From the NCBI RefSeq assembly GCF_009905375.1, contig NC_133650.1, positions 142,863,296-142,927,295 on the forward strand: a stretch of DNA of 64,000 bases, in the 5' to 3' direction. The translations under genes and the position numbers were made by a program. The first letter of the stretch is position 1. Each line of letters starts with the position of its first letter. This document shows positions 15,109 through 57,177 of this stretch, piece after piece. The notes below the pieces were generated by a model that saw nothing but the letters and a program-made list of their open reading frames with translations, had not been told where the DNA came from and made no database searches. Source of the DNA: Apium graveolens (lineage: Eukaryota; Streptophyta; Magnoliopsida; Apiales; Apiaceae).

Positions 15109-15171
15109 CTGAGCTCGAACTTACGAATCGGCATCACAAGTCTTACGCATTGTCTGCTTGAATCTAACCAT
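15109..15171 (-). other. LTR exon of gypsy A (3' LTR copy), H3-tail-like
   Basis: On the minus strand the ATG (complement of 15169-15171) encodes MVRFKQTMRKTCDADS, then a TAA at codon 17; the donor-like CAG|GTAGAA follows at 15109/15108. In B the corresponding codon is TAT, so the exon is open there. It resembles histone H3 residues 1-10 at M, R, K, Q, T, R, K. Decayed copy. Confidence 0.55.
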
Positions 15172-23789: not shown

Positions 23790-24148
23790 CTAAGGCTCCG
23801 CTCCACCAGATCGGGGTCCAGTAGTCTTCTCCTCATGAAGCGTCTTCACAATACTCTGGAGCTCATCCGCAATCATATGAATAGTATACTGGCTGGTACG
23901 GTCTCGGTGTGATGGCATCTCGTCAAGCTTATTATTAACGTAATAAACCAAGGTCTCAAGTCACGCAGTCATCTGCTCCTTAGGCTTTCCTCCATAATTT
24001 CGGTTGTCCGGATACACGTTCTTCAATCGCTCTAACAGTCGATCGTACTTTCCATGAAGCCTGTCGAACTCACGCCTCAACTCAGCATAAATGGAGAAAG
24101 CAATTATGTCGGACAGTTTAGAGGATGATGAGGAATGGGCGCCCTTTG
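23790..24148 (-). pseudogene. Gypsy A accessory ORF, exon-2 remnant
   Basis: It is about 80% identical in protein to B's exon 2 (29140-29496): AELRREFDRLHGKYDRLLERLKN, PDNRNYGGKPKEQM, and EMPSHRDRTSQY further on. It begins after an acceptor-like TTTGGCAG| (24149-24151 complement). Damage: a TGA replaces an Arg codon after KEQMTA, and two extra bases near 24137 shift the frame at the start. In a 40-codon stretch A and B differ by 7 synonymous and 6 amino-acid changes, fewer replacements than expected for non-coding DNA. Confidence 0.7.
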
Positions 24149-24282
24149 CTGCCAAATAATGCATAGATATATATATAAGAGAATTATTAGCGGATGACTC
24201 GAATAACCTATACCTACACTCTCGTATAATATTATAAACCTATATACATATATAACCTATTTGGGCTGTCGAGGGACTCTAA

Positions 24283-24295: not shown

Positions 24296-24976
24296 TGTGG
24301 CGCCCTTCAAACCCGGGTCAGAAGTTTGGGGTCCACACACATACCATATTTATAACCTGCTTATAACAATAATAAAGATAATAATAACATGTTGTGATCC
24401 TACTTACCAACTACCACGGACCGCAACAAGTTAAAATATATACACAAGCCACACACATACACTTTATATTAAAAATGTTCAAATCCCAACTATTCAAACT
24501 CAAAACTGAATATTAAACATTATTATAACTTTTACAAACTTAAACTATCTCAAAAGTTATCCGCTAGCTTAACTCGATCAACTTGGACCCCTAGCTCTCA
24601 CACTGGATTGGGGATCCTCGCTACCAACTGGTTCCTTCTTAACTGGAAAAGAACATAAACAATACCGCACAAATGAGCTAAATAGCTCAGCAAGTCACAA
24701 TGACAAGACTGAGAATAATGATCATCAAGTGAAAAGGATTAAAGTATCAAGTGAACAATGATTAATGATTAGAATTGGATATTATATTTTTATTTTAAAA
24801 ACCAAGGTTAGGCTGCTGATCAGTCACGCACTAACCCCGAGCAAGGCACACAGCTCTGCTCTAATTACTGGATCCAAGGCACACATTAGCCTAACTTGAC
24901 CACCAATCTGGCCTGACCACGAATCTGGTCCATAATTTTATAAAACAATCCAATTATAACATAATAACAGAATAAA
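24296..24976 (-). repeat. Gypsy C 3' LTR, left piece
   Basis: These are the terminal 681 bp before B's insertion. On the minus strand it has TGAGC...GCTCA (24674-24689) and a pyrimidine tract TTCTTTTCCAG (acceptor-like, about 24643), as in F, but no ATG or matching donor follows. ATAAA at 24972-24976 is B's left target duplication. No gene. Confidence 0.92.
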
Positions 24977-25888
24977 TGTTACGACCGGCATTTTATGTAA
25001 TATTATTTGTGAATAATATTAAGTTAAATAAAAATATATTCAATGCTTGTACGTTTGTGTGAGTGAAAATTTCTGCATTTTAAATTTGCTCTGGGTAGTA
25101 TATGATTTTTCAAAGCAAGAATTTATTTAATTTCTTTATTTTTGATTTATAAGGAATATTCTAAGCTTTGGAAAAATTTTCTTTTAAAAGACATTTTGTA
25201 CACAAATTTTGAAAATGATTTTATAAAGTCTCTAAAAATCCAAGTTATTTTATGGTATAAATTTTATAATTTTTGAACTTGTACTTTATTATATAAAAAT
25301 AAATCTTTGGAAATTAGTTGCTTAATAATTATCAAATTACATGAATAACCTTGCATGCAAACTCTCTTCTATTTAACCAAAGGGCTAAAGAGTCAATAAC
25401 CACCCCACTAACTCACAATTTGCTAGCCAAATTACCTCCTTGACCTTGCATGCAAACTTGCCTAACTTTGGCTAGAGGGTTACTCTTGTAATTTCTCACA
25501 TCCACTCACTTGTGGGCAAATAAAAACCAAACAATCATGATGATCACTCCACCATTTCTACATTTTTTCTCCCTCTCCTCTCCCTCCTCCCACCATTCCT
25601 CTCGGCTTTTTGCCGAAGCCCTACCCCCCTCCCCTTTTCTTCATTCCACATTCAAGTTTCCACCTCCCATACAAGTAAATATTACTTCCTATATCATGAT
25701 CATTTATATTCCAAAGAGTTTTGAGTAAAAAGTTTAAGTTTTAAAGTTGCATGTTAAGGTTTTAGTGAAACTCAAATATACAATCTTGATTCTTATGGAT
25801 TTAAGGTTGTTTTTGAGAGGACTACAATGAATGGATAAGTGCCAAGTCATGAGAAGGAAAATCTTGATGATTTAATGGCCATTTCCAT

Positions 25889-25930
25889 CCATTTCATTCG
25901 GCCATGACCATATGGGAGCCGAATGAATGG
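25889..25930 (+). promoter_or_regulatory. Conserved inverted repeat in B 5' LTR
   Basis: CCATTTCATTCGG (25889-25901) pairs with CCGAATGAATGG (25919-25930). Homologous stems occur in both A LTRs, one with a compensatory base-pair change. The 3' LTR copy is about 9,479 bp downstream. Confidence 0.6.
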
Positions 25931-28712
25931 TCCTTGAAATCATTCTTGTTGTTTTGATCAATTTTTGCATGTTTATGTGATAATGACTTAAATTTTGTGG
26001 TGATAATTTGATAAAACTCCTTGCATGCTAAGTGATCATCTAGGTATACCTTATGCTAGGCTTGCATGTCAATTTTAAGATGGAATATATGTAGAAAATA
26101 TGTTGTTTGGTTTGAAAAACCCGAAGGCATGCATGCATGTGGAATTCTCTTAGTTTGTTGTAAGATTTTGATCATTTGGAAAAGATTTTGTTAGTGAGCC
26201 TTAATTTCAGTAGGAATAATGTGATAATATGGATTTATGCTTCTTGTTGCATGGTAATAATTTGTGGTTATCTTTTATAAAAATATATATCATGTTGTTT
26301 CAAAAGCATAAAGGTTTATGAGTTGTAAAGAGTAGTCTCTTTTATTTTGCCATAGTTGCACCATAGGTAAGGATGATCTCACCAAGGGTATTTTGAGAAA
26401 AAAAAGAGTTAGTTCAGTAGAACACCAAGTATAGGTCTTGGTTTAAGTATTTAGTTGTTGATAATTGGGTTTGTCAAGTCAAAACCTTGGAAAATGAGAG
26501 TTATAGTTTCTGCAGAAAAATCAGTTTAGTACCCTGAGTTTAGAGTGAGTTTTGACCATGTCATTGATGTGCACTTTGAGGCCCAAGCCACCAGAAGTTA
26601 GTATGGGGAGTATATAATAGGTTTTAGGAGTTGGTTGGAGGTTTGCATGTCATTTGGTTAGGTGCACAAGTAGAATAACAAAATCTGTCCAGCAGGGGAC
26701 AGTTTTGTTGCAACTTGGAAATAGGGAGATTTGGCCATGTCATGGGTAGGCCCTCATTAGGCCCAATTGGGCCTTAGTTAGAGGGTATGTCAGAGAAGTT
26801 TTTCCAACCATAGTTCATAGGATATGAGCTAGAACCATGTGTCACAAGTTAATTCAAGTCAGGGCATTTTCTGCCCAGAAAAACAGGGGAACCTTGGACT
26901 TTTAGCTTAGGCCCAAGAAGGCCCAAGCCAGGCCTTTGAGCCACATCAAGCTTGTGAGATGCCCTTAGGTCAGGAGAGTCTTGTGTAAAAATTTTGAAGA
27001 AAAACTTGTAGTTTAAGAGTGTCTAATGCACTCAAGAAACCTTAGTTACCATTCTGAAATTTGCACCAGTGAGCACTTTCACTTATCGCATAGTTTTAGG
27101 ACACTTAGAAGTGAGTATTAGGTCGACCACCATAGTTGTAAAATAGTATAAGGTCAGTAGAACAAAAGGCACAAGTGAGGGTCAATAGGTTTTGGATAAT
27201 TTAGGAAAGGCACATTGAGTTAGGAAGCCCAAATTCGAAGACTTCGTTTAGTTAGCGACCAAGTAACTTAAGTGGTGAGTCGAGATCATCCAAGCCTAGT
27301 GTGGCATTATGGTGTATATGATGTTATTTGGTATTAATATACGATATGTGATTATGTGGCTACATGTGTACATTTGAAAATATAAAGGTGGATATGAATT
27401 AAGTGCGTATAGGCCTAAGTGCCATCCATGTTTAATTTCGGGTTGTAAATAGGTTAAGATGGAAAGAATATATTATAATGAGGATTATTATTATTATGTA
27501 GGATCTCGAGACGAGGGAAAACTTGCCATAAAAGTCGAGTGAAGCTCCAGTTGTTGCTCCTACCAGTCAGACCAGACCAGTCTATCTCAAGGCAAGTGAT
27601 TCAACTTGACCTTCGCATTTACTGTAAACAGTTCATATATATATCGATGCAATTATCCTGAGTCATTTTGATATATTTAAATCAAGAGTATCTTTTGTTT
27701 ATCTTTGAGTTACATAGAAATGCCATGAACCCTCGAGTACATATTGCAAGTAGTTCAAAAGTCTTTCATGATAGTTTAATGCCATGATAAATTAGAGATG
27801 CGTTATAATATCTTATTGATCCTTTTGTTTATCATGCTATTGATCCCTGAGAAATCTTGATGTTGCACCCTGATGCTTTGAATTCAACTCTTGAAATAGC
27901 CTCGATAGAAACTTTATTTTGATACCTAAAAGCCAATCATTTCTTAAATACATTCATGATTGTTTGATAACCCTATCCTTACCCTAAAGCTTGATACCCT
28001 GTTATATACTGAGCTGATGATCGCTTTCTTTATATTTTAACACCTTTATCCTATTTGTACCAGTGATGCCTATCTTCTTGATGTTCCAATACCTATACCT
28101 TGTCTACAACCATTGCTTTAAGCCTAGTTTGGCATTACTCTTTCATCTTATCCAATAGCCTGGCTTAATTTCCTTGTCTAAGTTCTTGTTTATGGAAACC
28201 TCTCAATTACCCTAATATAGTAAAGTCTAGTAGATCATGGCCCTGAGATTTAGTGTCATATTTCCAGTGTTTCAAGTTGATCTATAATCCCTTGATAAAA
28301 ATAATTACGGTCAAAAGAGGTTTCGTCATAAATCGGCATCAGTTTTTAAAATGATTAAAACGTGGATTTTTCAGTCCCAAAGGGGGACAAATGTTTTCTT
28401 GAATGGTGGATCTGGACTGAGACGCGAGTCCTTTCCACACTTATATTAGGCTTAAAAGTTGCCTAGGGATTCCCAATAATGTTTTAGAACCCAGCGAGGT
28501 TCGGGATTACTTCGCGGCTGATCACCGGCTGTAATCCGTAGCGTCATAAAATGATTTTGATTAAGAATGGTTTTAAAATTTGTTTTGATGCAAGCAAAAT
28601 GATGCCAACTCACATAAGATTTATCTCTCGATTATCATTGATTATGTCATTCCATTGTCATTCCTAAAGGTATATCTCGATTTATGCTTTGCGTTGTATT
28701 GTTAGCACTTGT

Positions 28713-28727
28713 TGAGCTTTTGGCTCA
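28713..28727 (+). promoter_or_regulatory. TGAGC/GCTCA hairpin motif near LTR 3' end
   Basis: TGAGC, a 5-base loop, GCTCA, followed by CTT-rich sequence and then the exon acceptor. Equivalent motifs are at 207-224 (F), 15208-15222 (A), 24674-24689 (C) and, with a G-T pair, 57036-57052 (E). Role unknown; it may mark an RNA-processing or splicing element. Confidence 0.5.
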
Positions 28728-28762
28728 CTTCTTGCTTTACCCTGATATTACAGCTAGCAGCC

Positions 28763-29496
28763 ATGGTTAGATTCAAGCAGACTGCCCGTAAGACCTGTGA
28801 TGCGGATGCTTATGTTCGAGCCCAGGTAGAATAAGTAATAATAGCGGTGTGAGGACTCGGTATTTGTAATCAGATGTAATAGTTGATAGTGTTGGGCTGT
28901 TCCAAACCCTAAACTGTAAGATCTTGGATTTTGGTTGTGTAGTACTCATTAAAATGATGTAATAACTATAACTATTTTGCTATTTAAGTTGGGGGTGTGA
29001 CAGGTTTTGGTATCAGAGCTACGGTTTAGAGTCCCTGAACAGCCCAAATAGGTTATAGGATTTGTGTGTAGGTTATAGATATTATGCGAGAGAGTAGGTT
29101 AAGTAGATTATTATTAATACTCCTCTTATTGGTTGTCAGCAAAGGGCGCATTCCTCGTCATCCTCTGGATCGGACGACACTATTGCTTTCTCCGTGTATG
29201 CTGAGTTGAGGCGCGAGTTCGACATGCTTCAGGGCAAGTACGACCGACTGATAGACCGACTGAAGAACGTGTATCCGGACAGCCGAAACTATGAAGGGAA
29301 GCCCAAGGAGCAGATGATTGCGAGACTTGAGACCTTGGTTGGGTACGTCAACACTAAGCTTGAGGAGATGCCAGCGCACCGGGACCGTACCAGCCAGTAT
29401 GTCATTCAGATGGTGGCGGATGAGCTCCAGAGCATTGTGAAGACACTTCGAGAGGAAAAGACTACCAAGCCCCGTTCAGATGGAGTGGAGCCTTAG
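28763..29496 (+). CDS. Predicted spliced accessory protein with histone-H3-like N-terminus
   Basis: Two exons are predicted. Exon 1 (28763-28825, in the LTR) has GCAGCCATGG context and 21 codons starting MVRFKQTARKT, against histone H3 MARTKQTARKS; KQTARK sits at the same distance from Met. It ends CAG|GTAGAA in phase 0. Exon 2 (29140-29496) follows a branch-like TTATTAATAC, a pyrimidine-rich stretch and TTGTCAG|. It is open in phase 0 for 118 codons: a Ser-rich start (AHSSSSSG), then a helical, charged domain (AELRREFDMLQGKYDRLIDRL, RLETLVGYVNTKLEEM, VADELQSIVKTLREEK). Exon 2 has no in-frame ATG before 29224, so splicing explains its start. The 314-nt intron removes the primer-binding site, implying a subgenomic mRNA. 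Gag begins 311 bp later. Splicing and function are inference; the fallback is a 91-codon ORF from 29224. Confidence 0.6.
29008..29019 (+). other. Gypsy B primer-binding site
   Basis: TGGTATCAGAGC (tRNA-iMet type), five bases after the LTR end. Confidence 0.95.
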
Positions 29497-29807
29497 TTCT
29501 TTCCATTTATCTTTCATGTTGTTGTACTATCAGACTCTATGGAATCCCCAGTTGTTTCCGTCTTTCCTTTAAATAAGCCTGTTATTTCTAGAATCAGACT
29601 ATGTCCCAATCCTATGTACTGTGACCTTTAAAATTTCAATAATTATGTGCTATTGTTCCATTTGCTCTCAACTGTTATTTTATGTTTTTATCATCATATC
29701 TGTTTAATTTGGAAACGTGACCCCATATGTAAACAAGAATGCCATGCGATACCCTCGAATCATTTTATCATTCATATTTGTTATAACACAACTCTTATTT
29801 CAGGATC

Positions 29808-32800
29808 ATGCCTCCCAAAAAGAAGAATCCAACAACCACCTTCACCACAGACCCAAACATTCTTCAACTACTGGAAACCTTGCAACAGCAAACCAATGCT
29901 ATAGCTCAACAACAATTAACTCTTCAACAACGAATTGAAAACCAAGATAACCGTGAGCCATATCAACCACCTGAACCACCAGTACCACCAAGACAAATTG
30001 TCACTTTCAAGGCTTTTCAGAATGTGAATCCACCTGTATTTCATGATACCACTGATCCAGTGATAGCAAACACATGGATCAAGGAGATGGAAAGGGCTTT
30101 TGAGTTGGTACAGTTAGGGGACGATCAGAAGACGCTGTATGCCACTTACTTCTTGAAGGGAGAAGTCATTTATTGGTGGGAATCAGTAAAAGTTATGGAA
30201 GTCACTCAGCAGATTTCTTGGGAGAGATTTAAGAAGTTATTTCTGGACAAGTATTACCCTAAGTACATGCAGAATCAGATGGAGCTAAAATTTCTTGAGT
30301 TAAAACAAGGGAACATGACTGTACTGGAATATGAGAAGAAGTTCACTGAGTTGTCAAGGTTTGTGACAAAGTATACCAGCACTGAGGAAGAAAAAGCAAA
30401 GAAATTTCAGCAAGGATTGGAGCCTTGGATCAGAGATAGGGTGGCTATGTTTGAACTTGAGACTTATGCGGGAGTAGTACAGAAAGCTGCTCTGATTGAG
30501 AATAATGGGATGCAGTCAAGGAAAGAGAGGGATAACAAGAAGAGGAAGGTTCCATTTTATGGAGAAAAGTCTGAAGCTGGAAGTTCGCAAGATCGGAATG
30601 TAAAGAGGATTGGTTTCCAGAAGGGCGGAAATTTTCAAAGGAAAGGAAATTTGGGCAAAAGGCAAGAATCAAAAGGGAACAATCAGGTAAACCAAGGGCA
30701 AGTTGGAGAAAACAGGTTCCAGAGGCCAGAATGCAAGCACTGTGGAAGAAGGCACCCCGGAGTATGCAATAAGCTGAGTATGACCTGTTATAGGTGCAAT
30801 CAGAAGGGACATTTGGCAAATGAGTGCAAGATGCCGAAGCCAGGAGTTACGTGCTACAAATGTGGGAAGACTGGACACATGGCTAGGGAATGTAAGGCAA
30901 CAGGACCAGTCAGAGCTCTGATGAACGTGGCAAGTACCAGTGCAAGCGTGCCAGCTGAGGTATTGGCATTACCTCCACCACCCGCACCAACCCCGCAAGC
31001 AACAGCAAGGACATTTGACCTAAAGATGAAAGATGCTGTTCAGAATTCTGAGGTGATAGCAGGTACACTTTTACTCAATAATGTCAAAGCCAAAGTATTG
31101 ATTGATTCGGGAGCCACAAGATCTTTCATATCAGAATCCTTTGTTGATAAGATCCAATGTGATAAAACGGTTATGAGTGAGGTAGTAAATGTGGTAATTG
31201 CGAACCAAGAGAAGATTCCTGTGAATCGATTTTGTCCAAAATGTGAGATTGATATTTCAGGATATAAGTTCTCGGCCGACTTGATACTCTTCAAGCTGGG
31301 AGAATTTGATATAATCTTAGGAATGGATTGGTTAGGAGAGAATAGCGCGCAGATAAATTGTAAGACCAAGAGAGTGAATTTAAAGACGAAGAGTGGAGAG
31401 AAGGTAGTATTTAAGGGACAGAGGCAAGAGCGACTATTTCTTACAATTATTCAGGCTAAGAAGTTACTTAGAAAAGGTTGTGAGTCGTTCCTAGCATATG
31501 TAGTGGATTCAGAGAGAGGCAGCCTCAGCATGGAAGATATTCCTGTAGTTAATGAGTTTCCCGATGTGTTTCCCGACGAACTACCAGGCTTACCACCAGA
31601 TCGACAAATTGAGTTCGAGATCAACCTTGCTCCAGGCACGGAACCAGTTTCAAAGGCTCCGTATAGGATGGCACCAGCAGAAATGAAAGAGTTGGCGAGC
31701 CAGCTACAAGAATTATTGGATAAGGGAGTGATACGACCAAGTACATCGCCATGGGGAGCACCTGTTCTCTTTGTGAAAAAGAAAGATGGGAGTATGCGTC
31801 TATGCATAGATTACCGGGAGTTGAATAAAGTAACGATCAAGAACCGCTACCCGCTACCAAGGATAGATGACCTTTTTGATCAGTTAAAGGGAGCAAAATG
31901 TTTTTCGAAGATTGACTTGAGATCGGGATACCATCAATTAAAGATCAAGGAAGAAGATATTCCCAAGACCGCATTTAGGACCAGATATGGGCATTATGAA
32001 TTCCTAGTAATGCCGTTTGGATTGACCAACGCCCCGGCCGCATTCATGGATCTGATGAATCGGGTATTTAAGAAGTATTTGGATAAATTTGTCGTGGTAT
32101 TTATTGATGACATCCTTATTTATTCTAAATCGGAAGAAGAACATATGCAGCATCTCTGGATAGCATTGGAGATACTCCGACACGAGAAGTTGTATGCCAA
32201 GTTTACCAAATGTGAGTTTTGGTTAAAGGAAGTTCAATTTTTGGGGCATGTTATTGGAAATGATGGAATTAAAGTGGATCCGGCGAAGATTGATGCAGTT
32301 ATGAGTTGGGAGAGGCCAAGGACTCCTACGGAAGTGCGAAGTTTTCTAGGATTGGCCGGATACTATAGAAGATTCGTCAAGGATTTCTCGAAGATCGCCA
32401 CGCCATTGACCAAGTTAACCAGAAAGAATCAAAGGTTTGAATGGAGTGCAGAATGTGAAAGTAGCTTTCAAGAGTTAAAACAGAAGTTGGTAACAGCTCC
32501 GGTGTTAGTACTTCCAGATGATCAAGGGAATTTTGTAATATTCAGCGATGCTTCACATAAGGGTTTGGGTTGTGTGTTGATGCAACACAGTAAGGTAATA
32601 GCATATGCGTCAAGACAGTTGAAGCCACACGAGTTAAAGTATCCGACGCATGACTTGGAATTAGCCGCCATAGTGTTCGCACTCAAGATTTGGAGACACT
32701 ATCTCTATGGAGAAAAGTGTGAAATCTACACGGATCACAAGAGTTTAAAATACATTTTTACTCAGAAAGAGCTCAATATGAGGCAGAGGAGATGGCTGGA

Positions 32801-34421
32801 ATTGATTAAGGACTATGACTGTTCGATAAATTACCATCCTGGAAAGGCGAACGTAGTGGCCGATGCGCTGAGTCGGAAGGAAAGATTGAATGCAATGATA
32901 ACATCAAAAGAGTTATCTGAAGAAATCGGAAAATTTGAATTGGAACTTTGTGCTTATGGGAAAGTCAAAGAAGTTTGTCATGCAATGACCTTTCAGCCAA
33001 CACTACTGGAAAAGATAAAGAAGTGTCAAGAGGAAGTAATGGAAAAAGAGAAAAATCAGTTATCTGGAGAAGAGATTAATACTAAAAAGGATGAGCAAGG
33101 AATACTAAGGTTTTCATCCAGAATATGGATTCCCCATGTATCTGAATTAAAGAATGAGATCCTCCATGAAGCCCACCATTCGAAATTTTCAATCCACCCG
33201 GGAAGCACCAAGATGTATCAAGACTTAAAGAAGAACTTTTGGTGGCCAAATATGAAAAGAGACGTGGCAGAATGGGTTGCGAAGTGCTATACTTGTCAGA
33301 AAGTAAAGGCAGAACATCAACGACCAAGCGGGTTAATTCAGCCCCTGAAGATTCCAGAATGGAAATGGGAAAATATCGCTATGGATTTTATAGTAGGACT
33401 ACCGCGAACAAAATCCGGACATGACGCAATATGGGTTATAATTGATCGTCTTACGAAGTCGGCGCATTTCCTTCCAATAAATGAGAAGTCGTCACTGGAC
33501 AAGTTGGTTCATCTGTATGTGCACGAAATCGTATTAAGGCATGGAGTACCTGTATCAATAGTTTCAGACAGAGATCCCCGATTTAACTCAAGATTCTGGA
33601 AGCAATTCCAGGAATGTCTTGGCACGAAGTTGAATATGAGCACGGCGTATCACCCGCAGACTGATGGCCAGAGTGAAAGAACAATTCAAACAATTGAAGA
33701 CATGTTGCGCAGTTGTGCAATCGATTTTGCTGGAAGCTGGGACGACCACCTGCCATTAATTGAATTTTCATATAACAACAGCTATCATTCCAGTATCGGC
33801 ATGCCACCATATGAAGCTTTGTACGGGCGAAAATGTAGATCACCAACAAGTTGGGATGAAGTAGGAGAAGGAAGAATTCTCGGCTCAGAATTGGTACAAC
33901 AGTTGCATGACTCAGTCAAGTTAATTCAGAAAAGGTTACTTGCTGCTCAAGATAGACAGAGGAAGTATGCGGATCCAGCGCGTAAAGATGTTCAATTCCA
34001 AATTGGCGAAGCTGTGTTGCTAAAAGTGTCACCTAGGAAAGGGTTGATAAGATTTGGCAAGAAAGGAAAGTTAGCACCTAGATACGTAGGTCCTTTTGAG
34101 ATTTTGAGTCAAGTAGGAAAGGTGGCCTACGAGTTGGCCTTACCACCTCAGTATCAGCATGTGCATAACGTGTTCCATGTGTCGTTGCTTAAGAAGTACA
34201 ATCCTGACGCTAGCCATGTGATAGAATATGAACCTGTAGAAATTCAGGCAGACCTGTCATTTGTGGAGCAACCGGTTAAAGTACTCGACTGGCAAGTAAA
34301 GAGTCTTAGAAATAAATCAGTAAAGTTAGTGAAAGTACTTTGGAGGAACCCTAAGGTCGAAGAGTCGACTTGGGAGTTAGAGTCTGATATGCGTTCCCGG
34401 TATCCTCATCTGTTCTCTTAG
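29808..34421 (+). CDS. Gypsy B gag-pol polyprotein, intact
   Basis: A single 1,537-residue frame from MPPKKK, with every domain of a Tekay chromovirus. Capsid (about residues 60-190): [31 protein letters not shown]. Zinc fingers about 307-361: [40 protein letters not shown]. Protease has DSGAT at about 432 and ILGMDWLG. Reverse transcriptase about 640-800 has [10 protein letters not shown] and VVFIDDIL. RNase H about 900-1030 has [18 protein letters not shown] and [14 protein letters not shown]. Integrase has an HHCC finger (H...H...CYTC, about 1121-1165) and D,D,E in [15 protein letters not shown] and GQSERTIQ. The C-terminal GPFEIL / [12 protein letters not shown] region ends in a chromodomain-like [16 protein letters not shown]. 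No frameshift or stop separates gag from pol. It acts in virus-like particles and the nucleus. Confidence 0.96.
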
Positions 34422-34438: not shown

Positions 34439-34455
34439 CCTTAAGGGGGAGAGGA
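34439..34455 (+). other. Gypsy B polypurine tract
   Basis: CCTTAAGGGGGAGAGGA directly precedes the 3' LTR start TGTTACGACC at 34456. Confidence 0.93.
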
Positions 34456-37400
34456 TGTTACGACCGGCATTTTATGTAATATTATTTGTGAATAATATTA
34501 AGTTAAATAAAAATATATTCAATGCTTGTACGTTTGTGTGAGTGAAAATTTCTGCATTTTAAATTTGCTCTGGGTAGTATATGATTTTTCAAAGCAAGAA
34601 TTTATTTAATTTCTTTATTTTTGATTTATAAGGAATATTCTAAGCTTTGGAAAAATTTTCTTTTAAAAGACATTTTGTACACAAATTTTGAAAATGATTT
34701 TATAAAGTCTCTAAAAATCCAAGTTATTTTATGGTATAAATTTTATAATTTTTGAACTTGTACTTTATTATATAAAAATAAATCTTTGGAAATTAGTTGC
34801 TTAATAATTATCAAATTACATGAATAACCTTGCATGCAAACTCTCTTCTATTTAACCAAAGGGCTAAAGAGTCAATAACCACCCCACTAACTCACAATTT
34901 GCTAGCCAAATTACCTCCTTGACCTTGCATGCAAACTTGCCTAACTTTGGCTAGAGGGTTACTCTTGTAATTTCTCACATCCACTCACTTGTGGGCAAAT
35001 AAAAACCAAACAATCATGATGATCACTCCACCATTTCTACATTTTTTCTCCCTCTCCTCTCCCTCCTCCCACCATTCCTCTCGGCTTTTTGCCGAAGCCC
35101 TACCCCCCTCCCCTTTTCTTCATTCCACATTCAAGTTTCCACCTCCCATACAAGTAAATATTACTTCCTATATCATGATCATTTATATTCCAAAGAGTTT
35201 TGAGTAAAAAGTTTAAGTTTTAAAGTTGCATGTTAAGGTTTTAGTGAAACTCAAATATACAATCTTGATTCTTATGGATTTAAGGTTGTTTTTGAGAGGA
35301 CTACAATGAATGGATAAGTGCCAAGTCATGAGAAGGAAAATCTTGATGATTTAATGGCCATTTCCATCCATTTCATTCGGCCATGACCATATGGGAGCCG
35401 AATGAATGGTCCTTGAAATCATTCTTGTTGTTTTGATCAATTTTTGCATGTTTATGTGATAATGACTTAAATTTTGTGGTGATAATTTGATAAAACTCCT
35501 TGCATGCTAAGTGATCATCTAGGTATACCTTATGCTAGGCTTGCATGTCAATTTTAAGATGGAATATATGTAGAAAATATGTTGTTTGGTTTGAAAAACC
35601 CGAAGGCATGCATGCATGTGGAATTCTCTTAGTTTGTTGTAAGATTTTGATCATTTGGAAAAGATTTTGTTAGTGAGCCTTAATTTCAGTAGGAATAATG
35701 TGATAATATGGATTTATGCTTCTTGTTGCATGGTAATAATTTGTGGTTATCTTTTATAAAAATATATATCATGTTGTTTCAAAAGCATAAAGGTTTATGA
35801 GTTGTAAAGAGTAGTCTCTTTTATTTTGCCATAGTTGCACCATAGGTAAGGATGATCTCACCAAGGGTATTTTGAGAAAAAAAAGAGTTAGTTCAGTAGA
35901 ACACCAAGTATAGGTCTTGGTTTAAGTATTTAGTTGTTGATAATTGGGTTTGTCAAGTCAAAACCTTGGAAAATGAGAGTTATAGTTTCTGCAGAAAAAT
36001 CAGTTTAGTACCCTGAGTTTAGAGTGAGTTTTGACCATGTCATTGATGTGCACTTTGAGGCCCAAGCCACCAGAAGTTAGTATGGGGAGTATATAATAGG
36101 TTTTAGGAGTTGGTTGGAGGTTTGCATGTCATTTGGTTAGGTGCACAAGTAGAATAACAAAATCTGTCCAGCAGGGGACAGTTTTGTTGCAACTTGGAAA
36201 TAGGGAGATTTGGCCATGTCATGGGTAGGCCCTCATTAGGCCCAATTGGGCCTTAGTTAGAGGGTATGTCAGAGAAGTTTTTCCAACCATAGTTCATAGG
36301 ATATGAGCTAGAACCATGTGTCACAAGTTAATTCAAGTCAGGGCATTTTCTGCCCAGAAAAACAGGGGAACCTTGGACTTTTAGCTTAGGCCCAAGAAGG
36401 CCCAAGCCAGGCCTTTGAGCCACATCAAGCTTGTGAGATGCCCTTAGGTCAGGAGAGTCTTGTGTAAAAATTTTGAAGAAAAACTTGTAGTTTAAGAGTG
36501 TCTAATGCACTCAAGAAACCTTAGTTACCATTCTGAAATTTGCACCAGTGAGCACTTTCACTTATCGCATAGTTTTAGGACACTTAGAAGTGAGTATTAG
36601 GTCGACCACCATAGTTGTAAAATAGTATAAGGTCAGTAGAACAAAAGGCACAAGTGAGGGTCAATAGGTTTTGGATAATTTAGGAAAGGCACATTGAGTT
36701 AGGAAGCCCAAATTCGAAGACTTCGTTTAGTTAGCGACCAAGTAACTTAAGTGGTGAGTCGAGATCATCCAAGCCTAGTGTGGCATTATGGTGTATATGA
36801 TGTTATTTGGTATTAATATACGATATGTGATTATGTGGCTACATGTGTACATTTGAAAATATAAAGGTGGATATGAATTAAGTGCGTATAGGCCTAAGTG
36901 CCATCCATGTTTAATTTCGGGTTGTAAATAGGTTAAGATGGAAAGAATATATTATAATGAGGATTATTATTATTATGTAGGATCTCGAGACGAGGGAAAA
37001 CTTGCCATAAAAGTCGAGTGAAGCTCCAGTTGTTGCTCCTACCAGTCAGACCAGACCAGTCTATCTCAAGGCAAGTGATTCAACTTGACCTTCGCATTTA
37101 CTGTAAACAGTTCATATATATATCGATGCAATTATCCTGAGTCATTTTGATATATTTAAATCAAGAGTATCTTTTGTTTATCTTTGAGTTACATAGAAAT
37201 GCCATGAACCCTCGAGTACATATTGCAAGTAGTTCAAAAGTCTTTCATGATAGTTTAATGCCATGATAAATTAGAGATGCGTTATAATATCTTATTGATC
37301 CTTTTGTTTATCATGCTATTGATCCCTGAGAAATCTTGATGTTGCACCCTGATGCTTTGAATTCAACTCTTGAAATAGCCTCGATAGAAACTTTATTTTG

Positions 37401-38481
37401 ATACCTAAAAGCCAATCATTTCTTAAATACATTCATGATTGTTTGATAACCCTATCCTTACCCTAAAGCTTGATACCCTGTTATATACTGAGCTGATGAT
37501 CGCTTTCTTTATATTTTAACACCTTTATCCTATTTGTACCAGTGATGCCTATCTTCTTGATGTTCCAATACCTATACCTTGTCTACAACCATTGCTTTAA
37601 GCCTAGTTTGGCATTACTCTTTCATCTTATCCAATAGCCTGGCTTAATTTCCTTGTCTAAGTTCTTGTTTATGGAAACCTCTCAATTACCCTAATATAGT
37701 AAAGTCTAGTAGATCATGGCCCTGAGATTTAGTGTCATATTTCCAGTGTTTCAAGTTGATCTATAATCCCTTGATAAAAATAATTACGGTCAAAAGAGGT
37801 TTCGTCATAAATCGGCATCAGTTTTTAAAATGATTAAAACGTGGATTTTTCAGTCCCAAAGGGGGACAAATGTTTTCTTGAATGGTGGATCTGGACTGAG
37901 ACGCGAGTCCTTTCCACACTTATATTAGGCTTAAAAGTTGCCTAGGGATTCCCAATAATGTTTTAGAACCCAGCGAGGTTCGGGATTACTTCGCGGCTGA
38001 TCACCGGCTGTAATCCGTAGCGTCATAAAATGATTTTGATTAAGAATGGTTTTAAAATTTGTTTTGATGCAAGCAAAATGATGCCAACTCACATAAGATT
38101 TATCTCTCGATTATCATTGATTATGTCATTCCATTGTCATTCCTAAAGGTATATCTCGATTTATGCTTTGCGTTGTATTGTTAGCACTTGTTGAGCTTTT
38201 GGCTCACTTCTTGCTTTACCCTGATATTACAGCTAGCAGCCATGGTTAGATTCAAGCAGACTGCCCGTAAGACCTGTGATGCGGATGCTTATGTTCGAGC
38301 CCAGGTAGAATAAGTAATAATAGCGGTGTGAGGACTCGGTATTTGTAATCAGATGTAATAGTTGATAGTGTTGGGCTGTTCCAAACCCTAAACTGTAAGA
38401 TCTTGGATTTTGGTTGTGTAGTACTCATTAAAATGATGTAATAACTATAACTATTTTGCTATTTAAGTTGGGGGTGTGACA
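34456..38481 (+). repeat. Gypsy B 3' LTR
   Basis: 4,026 bp, same length as the 5' LTR and identical wherever compared. It carries a second copy of the H3-like exon at 38242-38304 with donor GTAGAA after it, which in this position would splice into flanking DNA. Confidence 0.96.
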
Positions 38482-48817: not shown

Positions 48818-51800
48818 TGTCACACCCCAACTTTAACGATAGATATTATACAAATCAGTACAATAGTTAACAAAAGGAAATAAATGCATCTGAATCCAAG
48901 ATCTTACAGTTTAGGGTTTGGAATAGCCCAATACTATTAACTATTACAACCGTATTTTTTATATCGAGTCCTCACATAAAACGATCACTTATTCTACCTG
49001 AGCTCGAACTTACGAATCGGCATCACAAGTCTTACGCGCTATCTGCTTGAATCTAACCATTTCTGCTACCTGTAATGTCAAGGATGAAAGCAAGTAGTGA
49101 GTTGAATGCTCAATAAGTGCTATAATATGCATAAACAAGAATAAAAGAATAAAAATGGAAATGAAAGATTCAACAATATAGTATCAAGAGATAAATTTTC
49201 AGGGTGATGGCATCTTTTCTTGTAATAAAACAATTCAAAATCATTTCTTTATCAAAAACCATTTTATGACGCTACGGATTACAGCCGTGATCATCCGCGA
49301 AGTAATCCCGAACCTCGCTGGATTCTAGAACATTAATGGGATCCCTAGGCAACCTTTAAGCCTACAAATTAAGAGCGGAAAGGACTTGCGTCTCAGTCCA
49401 GATCCACTATTTAAAGAAAATATTTATCCCCCTTTGGGACTGAAAATCCATTTTTTAACTTTTTTATTTAAAAAAAATTATTTGATGCCAGGTGACGGTT
49501 AAACTATTAAATAATGAACATCTTTATCAAGGGTTCTAGATCAACTTTAAAGCCATGATCAACTAGACCGATACCTTATCAAATGGAATCGCAAAGTTTC
49601 TATTCACAAGGAATCTGACAATGTGTCTTCACAGGGTTGTTGGATAGTATAAAGGAACTAAGTCAAACTAGGTTCAGGGTAATGGTTCCAGATAAAACAT
49701 AGATATTAAAATATAAAGAATGTGAGCATAGTTCAAAGTATAACAGGGTATCATGTTTTAGGGGTAAGGATAGGGTTATCAAGAAATCATTAATAGTATT
49801 TAAGGTATAACTGACTTTTAGGTATCAAGATAAGGTTACTGAGTATAATTTGCACAGGGTTCAACATCACGATTACTTTGGTATACTATCATGGTATGAC
49901 TTTTGATTTACTTGCATAGAAATCTTGAAGTAAAGTTAAACTACTTGCAATAAATACTTGAGGGTTCATGGCACTTGCATATAATACGAAGATAGATTAG
50001 GAACCACTTGGATCATATATATCAAGGTGAATTAGAATACTCGCATCATATATAAGAACTGGGTTATCACACACTTGCAGTGTAAACAAAAAGGTAGGTT
50101 GAAACACTTGCCTTGAGAAAGGCTTGACTTGACTGGCAGGTGGGAGCAACTGGAGCTTCACTCAACTTTAATGGCAAGCTTACCCTCATCTCGAGATTGT
50201 ACACAAAATAATAATAACCTCATTATAATATATACTCACTAACTCGACCTAATTATAAACCGAAATTACGCACATTGGCACTTATGCCTATATACACATA
50301 CACGCTTACAATTACCTTATAAGCATAATAGTTCGCATAGCCACATATTCTCACATAAAACATTTAAGTAAATAATATATCCACACACTATATTGCATCA
50401 CTAAGATTGGATGATCTCACTCCACTTGCTCACGCCACTTATTTATGCTAAACTAGCCAAAACTCTTAATATCGACCTCATAACTCGAAGTGCCTTTTCT
50501 AAACCATCAAATTCTTATGGACCCTGACTTAGGCCTTACACTCTACTGATCTCATACTATCTTACAACTATGATGGTCAACCTAGGCCTCACTCATAAGT
50601 GTCCTAAAACTAAAGCTTAAGTGATTGTGCTCATTATAATGATTTCAGGATGACACCAATGGGTTTTTGAGTACAATTGACACCCTTACACTTCAAGTTT
50701 ACCTCCCAAACATTTACACTAGACTCTTCTGATCATAAGGCAACTCCTAAACTTGGTGTGGCTCAAGGGCCTAGCTTGGGCCTACCTGGACCTAAGCTTA
50801 AAGTCCAATGTTCCCCTATTTTCTGAACAAAAAAGTGTCCTGATTTGCACTAACTTATGGCACATGATTCTAACTCAATTCATATGAACTATGGCTGTAA
50901 AAACTCCTCTATCACACCCTCTAACTAGGGCTAACCAAGGCCTAGTGAGGGCCTACCCATGACATGGTCAAAACTTCTGATTTTAAGTTGTAACAAAACT
51001 GCCCCCTGCTGGACAGGTTTAATGTTTTCACTCGTGCACCCAACCAAACAACCTAGAAACCTCTAATCAACACCTGAAATCTAAATTATGTTCCTAGTGC
51101 TAACTTCTGGTGACTTGGGCCTCAAAGTGCATTACCATGACAAGGTCAAATCTCACTCTAAACCTTATGGAACCAAACTGAAATTCTACAGAATCTAATG
51201 TACCCCTTTTTACCATGTTTCCCACTTGACAAACCAAACCAAACATCAACCAAAACTCAAACCAAACCCCAACCAAGGCAACCTACTGAACTAACACTTC
51301 CACACAAAACTTTGGCTTAGTGGAGATCATCCTTACCTAAGGTGCAATATAGTAAAACAAGAGTTAACACAATATACTAATTACAAGTCATCTCAAATTC
51401 AAAAGTACACTTAAATCCTTCAAATATATATATATATATGAATCAAAAAAACATAACAAGGAGTACAAATCATATTTGATATCTTAACTCAACTGAAATT
51501 AGAGATTATTAACAAAAATCAAACCAAATGATCAAGAACTTTCAGAAATCATGAGTTGAATCTATGCATGCATGCTTTCGAGTTTACAAGCCAAAAACAA
51601 TATGGTTTCCAAAATAATTTCATCATAAAATCAACATGCAAGCCTACCATTAACTATAACTAAATGATCACTTAGCACGCAATGGGTTTTATCAAGTTTT
51701 TACTTCCAAAACCAAGCTATCATCACATAAACATTCAAGATCAACAAAGCAACAAAGAAACACCATTAAGCACCATTCATTCGGCTCCCTTATGGTCAGG

Positions 51801-57093: not shown

Positions 57094-57177
57094 ATGAACA
57101 GGACCAAGCTTCCAATTCGCAAGCGGTTAGAAAATGTTCCGCAGTTTTCTGGAAGCGTTGATGCCGCCGTAGCTGAG
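57094..57177 (+). other. LTR exon of element E, H3-tail-like start
   Basis: After a pyrimidine-rich tract and CATCAG| (57084), ATG at 57094 opens 28 codons starting MNRTKLPIRKR, ending at donor-like GAG|GTAGGA (57177/57178) in phase 0. M-x-R-T-K-x-x-x-R-K is the spacing of histone H3 (MARTKQTARK). Unspliced, it reads on to 57240. A phase-0 acceptor candidate after the primer-binding site is TATAG|TTC (57663/57664), which would join an acidic ORF to 57884, but its pyrimidine tract is poor. Confidence 0.5.

Follow-up and report, generated by a model that had tools for sequence, protein, structure and literature searches.

A predicted two-exon accessory gene with a histone H3-like N-terminus in a celery LTR retrotransposon

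Retrotransposon silencing in plants depends largely on marks of the histone H3 tail, namely methylation of K9 and the absence of methylation at K4. The stretch of the Apium graveolens genome analyzed here (the window; 64,000 nucleotides of contig NC_133650.1, assembly GCF_009905375.1) contains an LTR retrotransposon, element B, in which an open reading frame that starts like H3 lies within the LTR and ends at a potential splice donor. This raises the question of whether the frame is a coding exon of an accessory gene and, if so, whether its likeness to H3 is the reason why it has been retained. From the sequence and its relatives, we confirm the observation of a predicted spliced accessory gene with an H3-like start in element B, and we consider it very probable that the gene is a real and conserved one made of two exons.

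The accessory gene of element B and its splice signals

Element B and the gene within it comprise the following features, given in window coordinates:

24976..29002, plus strand: 5' LTR of element B, 4,027 bp, 100% identical to 34455-38481
28751..28753, plus strand: CAG of the acceptor ATTACAG/CTAGCAGCC ahead of the coding exon; ATTACAG is also present in both LTRs of copy A (see below)
28763..28825, plus strand: coding part of exon 1, MVRFKQTARKTCDADAYVRAQ, 63 nt, encoding the H3-like tail; ATG at 28763, ends in CAG followed by GTAGAA
28826..29139, plus strand: predicted intron, GTAGAA...TTGTCAG, 314 nt, which covers the end of the LTR and the primer-binding site
29008..29019, plus strand: primer-binding site TGGTATCAGAGC, just past the LTR end TGTGACA
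29140..29496, plus strand: exon 2, 118 codons (29140-29493) and a stop codon (29494-29496), behind the acceptor TTGTCAG; three-helix module predicted
29801..29803, plus strand: CAG of the acceptor TTATTTCAG/GATCATG directly 5' of the gag start; TCAGGATCATG is common to B and A
29808..34421, plus strand: intact gag-pol open reading frame with gag, zinc knuckles, protease, RT, RNase H, integrase and a weak chromodomain
34281..34412, plus strand: chromodomain-like C-terminal stretch, a weak match to PF00385 (E 0.015; 15.6 bits, cut-off 25.1)
34455..38481, plus strand: 3' LTR of element B, with a second copy of exon 1 at 38242-38304

The identity of the two LTRs over their whole length indicates a recent insertion. 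The primer-binding site is of a type that we take to be complementary to initiator-Met tRNA. A Pfam scan placed gag, protease, RT, RNase H and integrase, in this order, in a single open reading frame, with a weak chromodomain match at the C-terminus. The latter stretch was also weakly matched in a search of PDB sequences, where the best match was an unnamed protein (E 0.0097) and the first named chromodomain followed at E 0.085; judged by eye rather than from a structure-based alignment, its W is kept and its first cage site has no visible aromatic. The initial annotation assigned element B to the Tekay lineage, a provisional label that fits the long LTRs and domain order of Tekay elements. 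As read from alignments, the window also holds a second, older copy of the family, copy A, on the minus strand (5' LTR 52739-48820, 3' LTR 18841-14931, leader and gag-pol 24308-18842), and a third element, C (approximately 48804-24314), which is inserted in copy A and carries element B inside its own 3' LTR. These nested insertions fill 14931-52739; element C sits in the primer-binding site of copy A, with an apparent TCAGA target duplication, and its 5' LTR end and leader are seemingly deleted.

Every exon, donor and acceptor feature that the initial annotation had claimed for element B is present at the claimed coordinates and phases, with both the exon 1 donor and the exon 2 acceptor in phase 0. 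Exon 2 lies 5' of gag, which starts at 29808, and thus in the position of the additional open reading frames (5' aORFs) of Tekay elements. The further claim that exon 2 lacks an early ATG of its own is accurate for element B, in which the region from the primer-binding site to the exon 2 acceptor contains a single ATG, at 29084, in another frame, and exon 2 itself has no in-frame ATG before codon 29, as read from the translation. It does not extend to the family as a whole, since an in-frame ATG stands just 5' of exon 2 in three related proteins (P0002, P0009 and P0020) and in copy A, at 24164.

To rank the splice sites, we scored the region 28300-29850 with a matrix of approximate plant splice frequencies. 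By this measure, the exon 1 donor at 28826 ranks second of 99 GTs and the acceptor at 28753, 5' of the ATG, fifth of 100 AGs, while the exon 2 acceptor at 29139 comes only sixteenth and the acceptor preceding gag, at 29803, first. Because the ATTACAG acceptor is kept in copy A and is apparently used in gene models (read from the letters, P0005 and P0011 seem to enter there as LAAMV and P0024 as LAIMV), the coding exon of element B is probably internal, with a predicted extent of 28754-28825 (72 nt). Since the strong acceptor ahead of gag is also common to copy A, the sequence suggests alternative splicing, with one product for gag and another for the accessory protein, and gag may be expressed from a spliced leader. 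A fusion of the H3-like exon to gag can be dismissed, as a transcript joining exon 1 to 29803 would miss the gag frame and soon encounter a stop.

Several further signals accompany these sites. Element C has a similar TTTACAG/AAAATG ahead of its gag, and the corresponding acceptor of copy A lies at about 23485 on the minus strand. The top-ranked donor of the region by the same matrix, AAG/GTATAT, would define an 84-nt intron (28670-28753) in element B together with the exon 1 acceptor, and this donor is absent from the LTRs of copy A, where a GTAAGT stands just ahead of the usual donor and receives a lower score by hand scoring. Ahead of the LTR acceptor, GTTGAGCTTTTGGCTCAC (28711-28728) forms a small inverted repeat with counterparts in copy A and an altered form in element C, and may be an RNA element conserved among these LTRs. 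Just past the donor, the AATAA- and TGTAA-rich sequence at 28826-28900 resembles a plant polyadenylation region, which splicing of the 5' LTR transcript would excise.

Relatives and selection

Protein and profile searches with exons 1 and 2 found relatives that share the same junction in Apium and Heracleum. Searched with the spliced product, 18 candidates yielded 11 proteins at E up to 1; residues 22-155 of a hit from Sosnowsky's hogweed (Heracleum sosnowskyi) retrieved five of 39 candidates at E up to 10, and a profile of exon 2 retrieved 24 of 2,951 candidates, also at E up to 10. The combined set comprises 25 relatives, namely nine NCBI gene models and 16 proteins from jgi, ena or lgn contigs. 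Seven of the 25 have a start of the form M..xKQTARK; each is a gene model, four being from Apium graveolens (P0001, P0005, P0011 and P0024) and three from Heracleum sosnowskyi (P0008, P0010 and P0012). In five of these models (P0001 and P0005 from Apium; P0008, P0010 and P0012 from Heracleum), exons 1 and 2 are joined at the same AQ/Q codon junction, across which they read ...AQ/Q[R/S/C]AHSSSS. P0011, found through its tail at E 0.28, uses the same donor and then runs into other sequence, and P0024, a divergent celery model that starts MVSTKQTARK, joins differently, after KQTARK. P0001 is 99% identical to the product of element B over its whole length; in exon 2, identity to element B is 53% for P0008 and P0012 and 32% for P0024.

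The motif KQTARK (K4-Q-T-A-R-K9 in H3 numbering) is intact in all six proteins formed by the five joined models and P0024. Since all six also score with the exon-2-only profile, their tails need not have driven their selection; the profile was built in part from P0008 and P0012, but not from P0001, P0005, P0010 or P0024, and P0008 was first found by a query that included exon 1. Conservation of the donor phase, of KQTARK and of the acceptor in other family members, on which the initial annotation had staked its reading, was thus found in gene models from two separately annotated genera and, in the divergent celery model, in part.

Among the 16 contig proteins, exon 1 was found in none, though most are too short to show it. 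The four that reach past the acceptor (P0002, P0009, P0014 and P0020) all represent unspliced leader, and three of them (P0002, P0009 and P0020) start MRESRLS at an in-frame ATG, the counterpart of which is out of frame in element B. Together with the in-frame ATG of copy A, these proteins would fit a model in which exon 2 is translated from a nearby ATG on unspliced RNA, exon 1 being a separate upstream reading frame or a noncoding leader exon. We nevertheless judge this model quite improbable, because the ATG is out of frame in precisely the young copy with an intact gag-pol, because the changes in exon 1 show a synonymous bias (see below), and because models from both Heracleum and Apium splice the two exons together.

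Gene models bring their own complications. In the celery model P0016, as read from the letters, sequence of the primer-binding site runs into exon 2 at the same Q, and five models (P0001, P0005, P0011, P0016 and P0024) look chimeric upstream, which makes gene annotation imperfect evidence. According to excerpts of the report on celery cv. Challenger, final gene models had Iso-Seq or Tag-Seq support and models over annotated transposons were removed (PMC12148408); that model set may differ from the NCBI AgCh_... entries. For hogweed, the excerpted passages of PMC10548655 have the assembly as their subject.

Copy A carries counterparts of both exons:

48998..49060, minus strand: exon 1 in the 5' LTR of copy A, reading MVRFKQIARKTCDADS up to a stop
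15109..15171, minus strand: exon 1 in the 3' LTR of copy A, reading MVRFKQTMRKTCDADS up to the same stop
23790..24148, minus strand: exon 2 of copy A, with one internal TGA and two extra bases near its start

We rejected copy A as a second working copy, as stops and a shifted frame break the gene in both exons. The stop in exon 1 is a TAA in both LTRs, the motif reads KQIARK or KQTMRK, depending on the LTR, and the aligned stretches of gag-pol contain 16 stops. At least one lineage has thus lost the accessory gene or managed without it.

Comparison of the two copies nonetheless provides a record of the changes that accumulated in each exon. For exon 1, dN/dS between B and the two LTRs of copy A was 0.066 (A5) and 0.117 (A3) over 20 codons, with six synonymous and two nonsynonymous changes relative to A5 (Fisher p 0.0013, from rounded site counts). 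For exon 2, it was 0.318 over 114 codons, with codons that are a stop in copy A excluded (Fisher p 0.00012, again from rounded site counts); the comparison value for gag-pol was 0.076 over 1,519 codons. When sets carrying as many changes as observed were simulated for exon 2, none of the 5,000 had as few amino-acid differences as the 24 observed (stop included), the mean being 36. Drawn from a single pair of copies, one of them broken, and from few changes, these values point to purifying selection on both exons. Exon 2 is 84.6% identical between B and A, against 73.9% for the leader before it and 71.3% for the leader after it, and exon 1 is 84-86% identical, against 68-72% (28641-28753) and 70-72% (28826-29002) for its flanks and 79-81% for 28400-28640. 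Since the LTR segment 28376-28575, which has no known coding role, reaches about 89%, exon 1 exceeds its near neighbours and not the whole LTR, and its synonymous bias is the better evidence. Synonymous divergence between A and B is about 1.0 in gag-pol and 0.39 in exon 2, and the LTR ends and leader are about 70-80% identical; recombination may have given the LTR-leader and gag-pol modules separate histories.

Likeness to histone H3 and predicted protein structure

The three hogweed proteins with exon 1 start MVRTKQTARKSS, which equals histone H3 (MARTKQTARKST) at ten of 12 residues. Exon 1 of element B matches residues 1-12 of H3 at eight of 12 positions in both LTR copies, the best score of any ATG start of 12 codons or more in the window (1,234 on both strands); the two copies of exon 1 in copy A come next, with seven of 12, and the best unrelated start has six. 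One unrelated start with six matches, at 57094 on the plus strand, reads MNRTKLPIRKRLEN and lies between two copies of another LTR-like repeat; its likeness to H3 is probably due to chance. With the first 32 residues of P0008 as a query, the best PDB match was an H3.2 peptide (E 0.0074), whereas exon 1 of element B alone gave no PDB match at E up to 10, a result that we count against any claim resting on element B by itself.

That null result is what one would see if an LTR frame merely happened to start like H3 and lay by accident in phase with a downstream reading frame. Such a coincidence is nevertheless extremely improbable in our view: from the residue frequencies of the 1,234 starts, only about 2.5e-5 in-register occurrences of KQTARK are expected per window, the motif recurs in Heracleum with a closer match to H3, and both the selection test and the hogweed models speak against chance.

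The H3-like sequence stands outside any histone fold. Beyond the tail, exon 1 bears no likeness to histones, and a histone family was absent both from the four Pfam matches of the spliced B product at E up to 1 and from the 25 families listed when the homologue alignment (A2, 11 rows) was scanned. An origin of exon 2 from a histone gene or pseudogene was rejected, as no histone family is among the Pfam matches listed. More generally, no Pfam family reached its curated cut-off with exon 2 or the spliced product, the best E among the 25 families listed for the A2 rows was 0.0071, no good sequence relative of known structure was found, and comparison of structural folds gave no clear match that would suggest a function.

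These features leave room for a tail kept for another reason, such as nuclear import through basic residues, RNA or DNA binding, or packaging, with its likeness to H3 accidental. The tail is short and basic, H3 positions 2 and 3 vary among the models (R2 to I or S, T3 to F), the remainder of exon 1 and the Pfam searches offer nothing histone-like, and other LTR parts without a known coding function show as much conservation between the two copies. A need for charge alone, however, hardly explains in-register matches at ten of 12 positions in hogweed and eight of 12 in element B or a K4-K9 stretch unchanged in all six proteins, and we regard this account as rather unlikely. On balance, we favor the view that the tail has been retained because it resembles H3, a view in which we have fair but limited confidence.

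In an AlphaFold model of P0008 built from 20 sequences (mean pLDDT 66, pTM 0.43), residues 1-34 have pLDDT below 50, which fits a free tail and equally a thin alignment, and helices span residues 40-69, 78-99 and 106-128, with a short one at 141-153. For exon 2 of element B alone, helices were predicted at 17-44, 56-76 and 83-105 (mean pLDDT 74, pTM 0.43). With moderate confidence, we propose that the accessory protein probably consists of a free, unstructured N-terminus and a three-helix module.

Possible roles of the tail and known systems

In the mechanism that we propose, element B would encode, beside gag-pol, an accessory protein of about 139 residues. Transcription would start upstream within the 5' LTR, and exon 28754-28825 would be spliced in vivo to the leader exon 29140-29496, at a junction that is annotated in relatives. 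The first Met is usually removed before Val. Its removal would leave V-R-F-K4-Q-T-A-R-K9-T at the start of the B protein and V-R-T-K4-Q-T-A-R-K9-S at that of the hogweed protein, next to A-R-T-K4-Q-T-A-R-K9-S in H3, and would give the two lysines their H3 numbers, 4 and 9. The helical part may oligomerize and display many such tails, which, being exposed, could occupy host proteins that read or write H3K4 and H3K9. Candidate targets are H3K9 methyltransferases, CMT-type readers, H3K4 demethylases and the K4/K9 reader through which RNA polymerase IV is recruited. Occupancy of this kind would blunt silencing of the element or steer the element to chosen chromatin, and the most likely form of the mimic would be a decoy against silencing.

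Taken whole, the explanation that a two-exon accessory protein carries an H3-like tail on a helical module and engages host H3K4/K9 readers or writers stands, in our estimation, evenly between acceptance and doubt. Use of the tail specifically as a decoy or anti-silencing agent is more tentative, and overlaps in part with a role as a ligand within the element's own machinery. It is tempting to hypothesize, as something possible rather than probable, that a carrot-family LTR lineage evolved a true H3 tail mimic in N-terminal register, spliced from its own LTR and methylated and read like H3, which would either disarm H3K9/K4-based silencing or provide the ligand that its own type II chromodomain lacks. 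If true, an H3-like tail made by a transposable element would constitute direct evidence for an arms race over the H3 tail surface. It would also be a candidate answer to two questions, the role of the Tekay 5' accessory reading frames and the binding partner of type II chromodomains, and both are amenable to tests with short peptides and existing RNA data.

The second branch of this hypothesis can be framed as an alternative in its own right, in which the tail is bound by the chromodomain of the element's own integrase or by a host targeting reader and helps to choose insertion sites rather than to block silencing. Element B does end in a chromodomain-like stretch, albeit a weak match, and in the excerpted text of PMC6317226 the partner of type II chromodomains is described as not identified. 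Moreover, according to excerpts of PMC11728184, the sunflower Tekay group that has a 5' aORF differs in its insertion pattern from the groups that lack one, and the authors suggested that aORF proteins may shape this pattern. On the other hand, type II chromodomains are defined by the lack of the first and usually the last aromatic of the cage (PMC6317226, in part), and the loss of methyl-lysine cage residues makes an H3K9-like ligand not obviously suitable for them. We consider the alternative unlikely, and return to the engagement of host readers and writers as the preferred reading.

Additional reading frames upstream of gag are not new in themselves. The excerpts of PMC11728184 describe 5' aORFs in sunflower Tekay group 2, present in 500 of 523 group-2-like copies and with a predicted nuclear location, and name them alongside those of the Poaceae elements RIRE3, RIRE8 and Retrosat-2; additional reading frames of plant LTR elements have also been reviewed (PMC7264820), in an excerpted text where the word "histone" occurs 0 times. 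The sunflower aORF shares with the B gene its place at the 5' end of a Tekay chromovirus and a predicted product with disordered parts and three helices. By its description (PMC11728184, in part), however, it is set apart as a proline-rich protein of about 400 residues, against about 139 for the B gene with its first exon in the LTR and its H3-like start. Neither "histone" nor "splic" occurs in the main text of PMC11728184, and the portions of the literature covered contain no H3-like start and no exon inside an LTR for Tekay 5' accessory reading frames. The statement of the initial annotation that no gene of this kind was known in Tekay elements must consequently be narrowed: 5' accessory frames had been published (PMC11728184, in part), and the H3-like N-terminus and the first exon inside the LTR would be what is new relative to them. 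Its wider interpretation fared similarly, as the gene models bear out a two-exon gene whose donor, acceptor and phase are shared and whose N-terminus resembles H3, but the coding exon is probably internal and the class of 5' aORFs was already on record.

Parallels also exist outside Tekay elements. Mimics of the H3 tail reportedly include G9a/GLP, influenza NS1 and SNAG-domain proteins that occupy LSD1. Each of these non-histone proteins, like the B gene product, contains a short sequence resembling H3, which SNAG proteins too have at their extreme N-terminus. They are, however, animal host or virus proteins, whereas the predicted B protein would come from a plant LTR element and would have both K4 and K9 in register. 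A second parallel is provided by the anti-silencing proteins of VANDAL elements, presumably those named VANC, which are extra proteins encoded by a transposon that lift host silencing, an activity only proposed for the B gene. VANDAL elements are DNA transposons, and we know of no histone-like tail in their proteins. In excerpts of PMC11728184, Vandal aORFs are said to protect from RdDM. Finally, env-like and Ogre transcripts resemble the B gene in that splicing expresses an extra or downstream reading frame; as excerpted from PMC7264820 and PMC6317226, the env-like frames lie 3' of pol and the Ogre splicing concerns the gag-pro/RT region, whereas the predicted intron of element B lies 5' of gag, over the LTR end and the primer-binding site.
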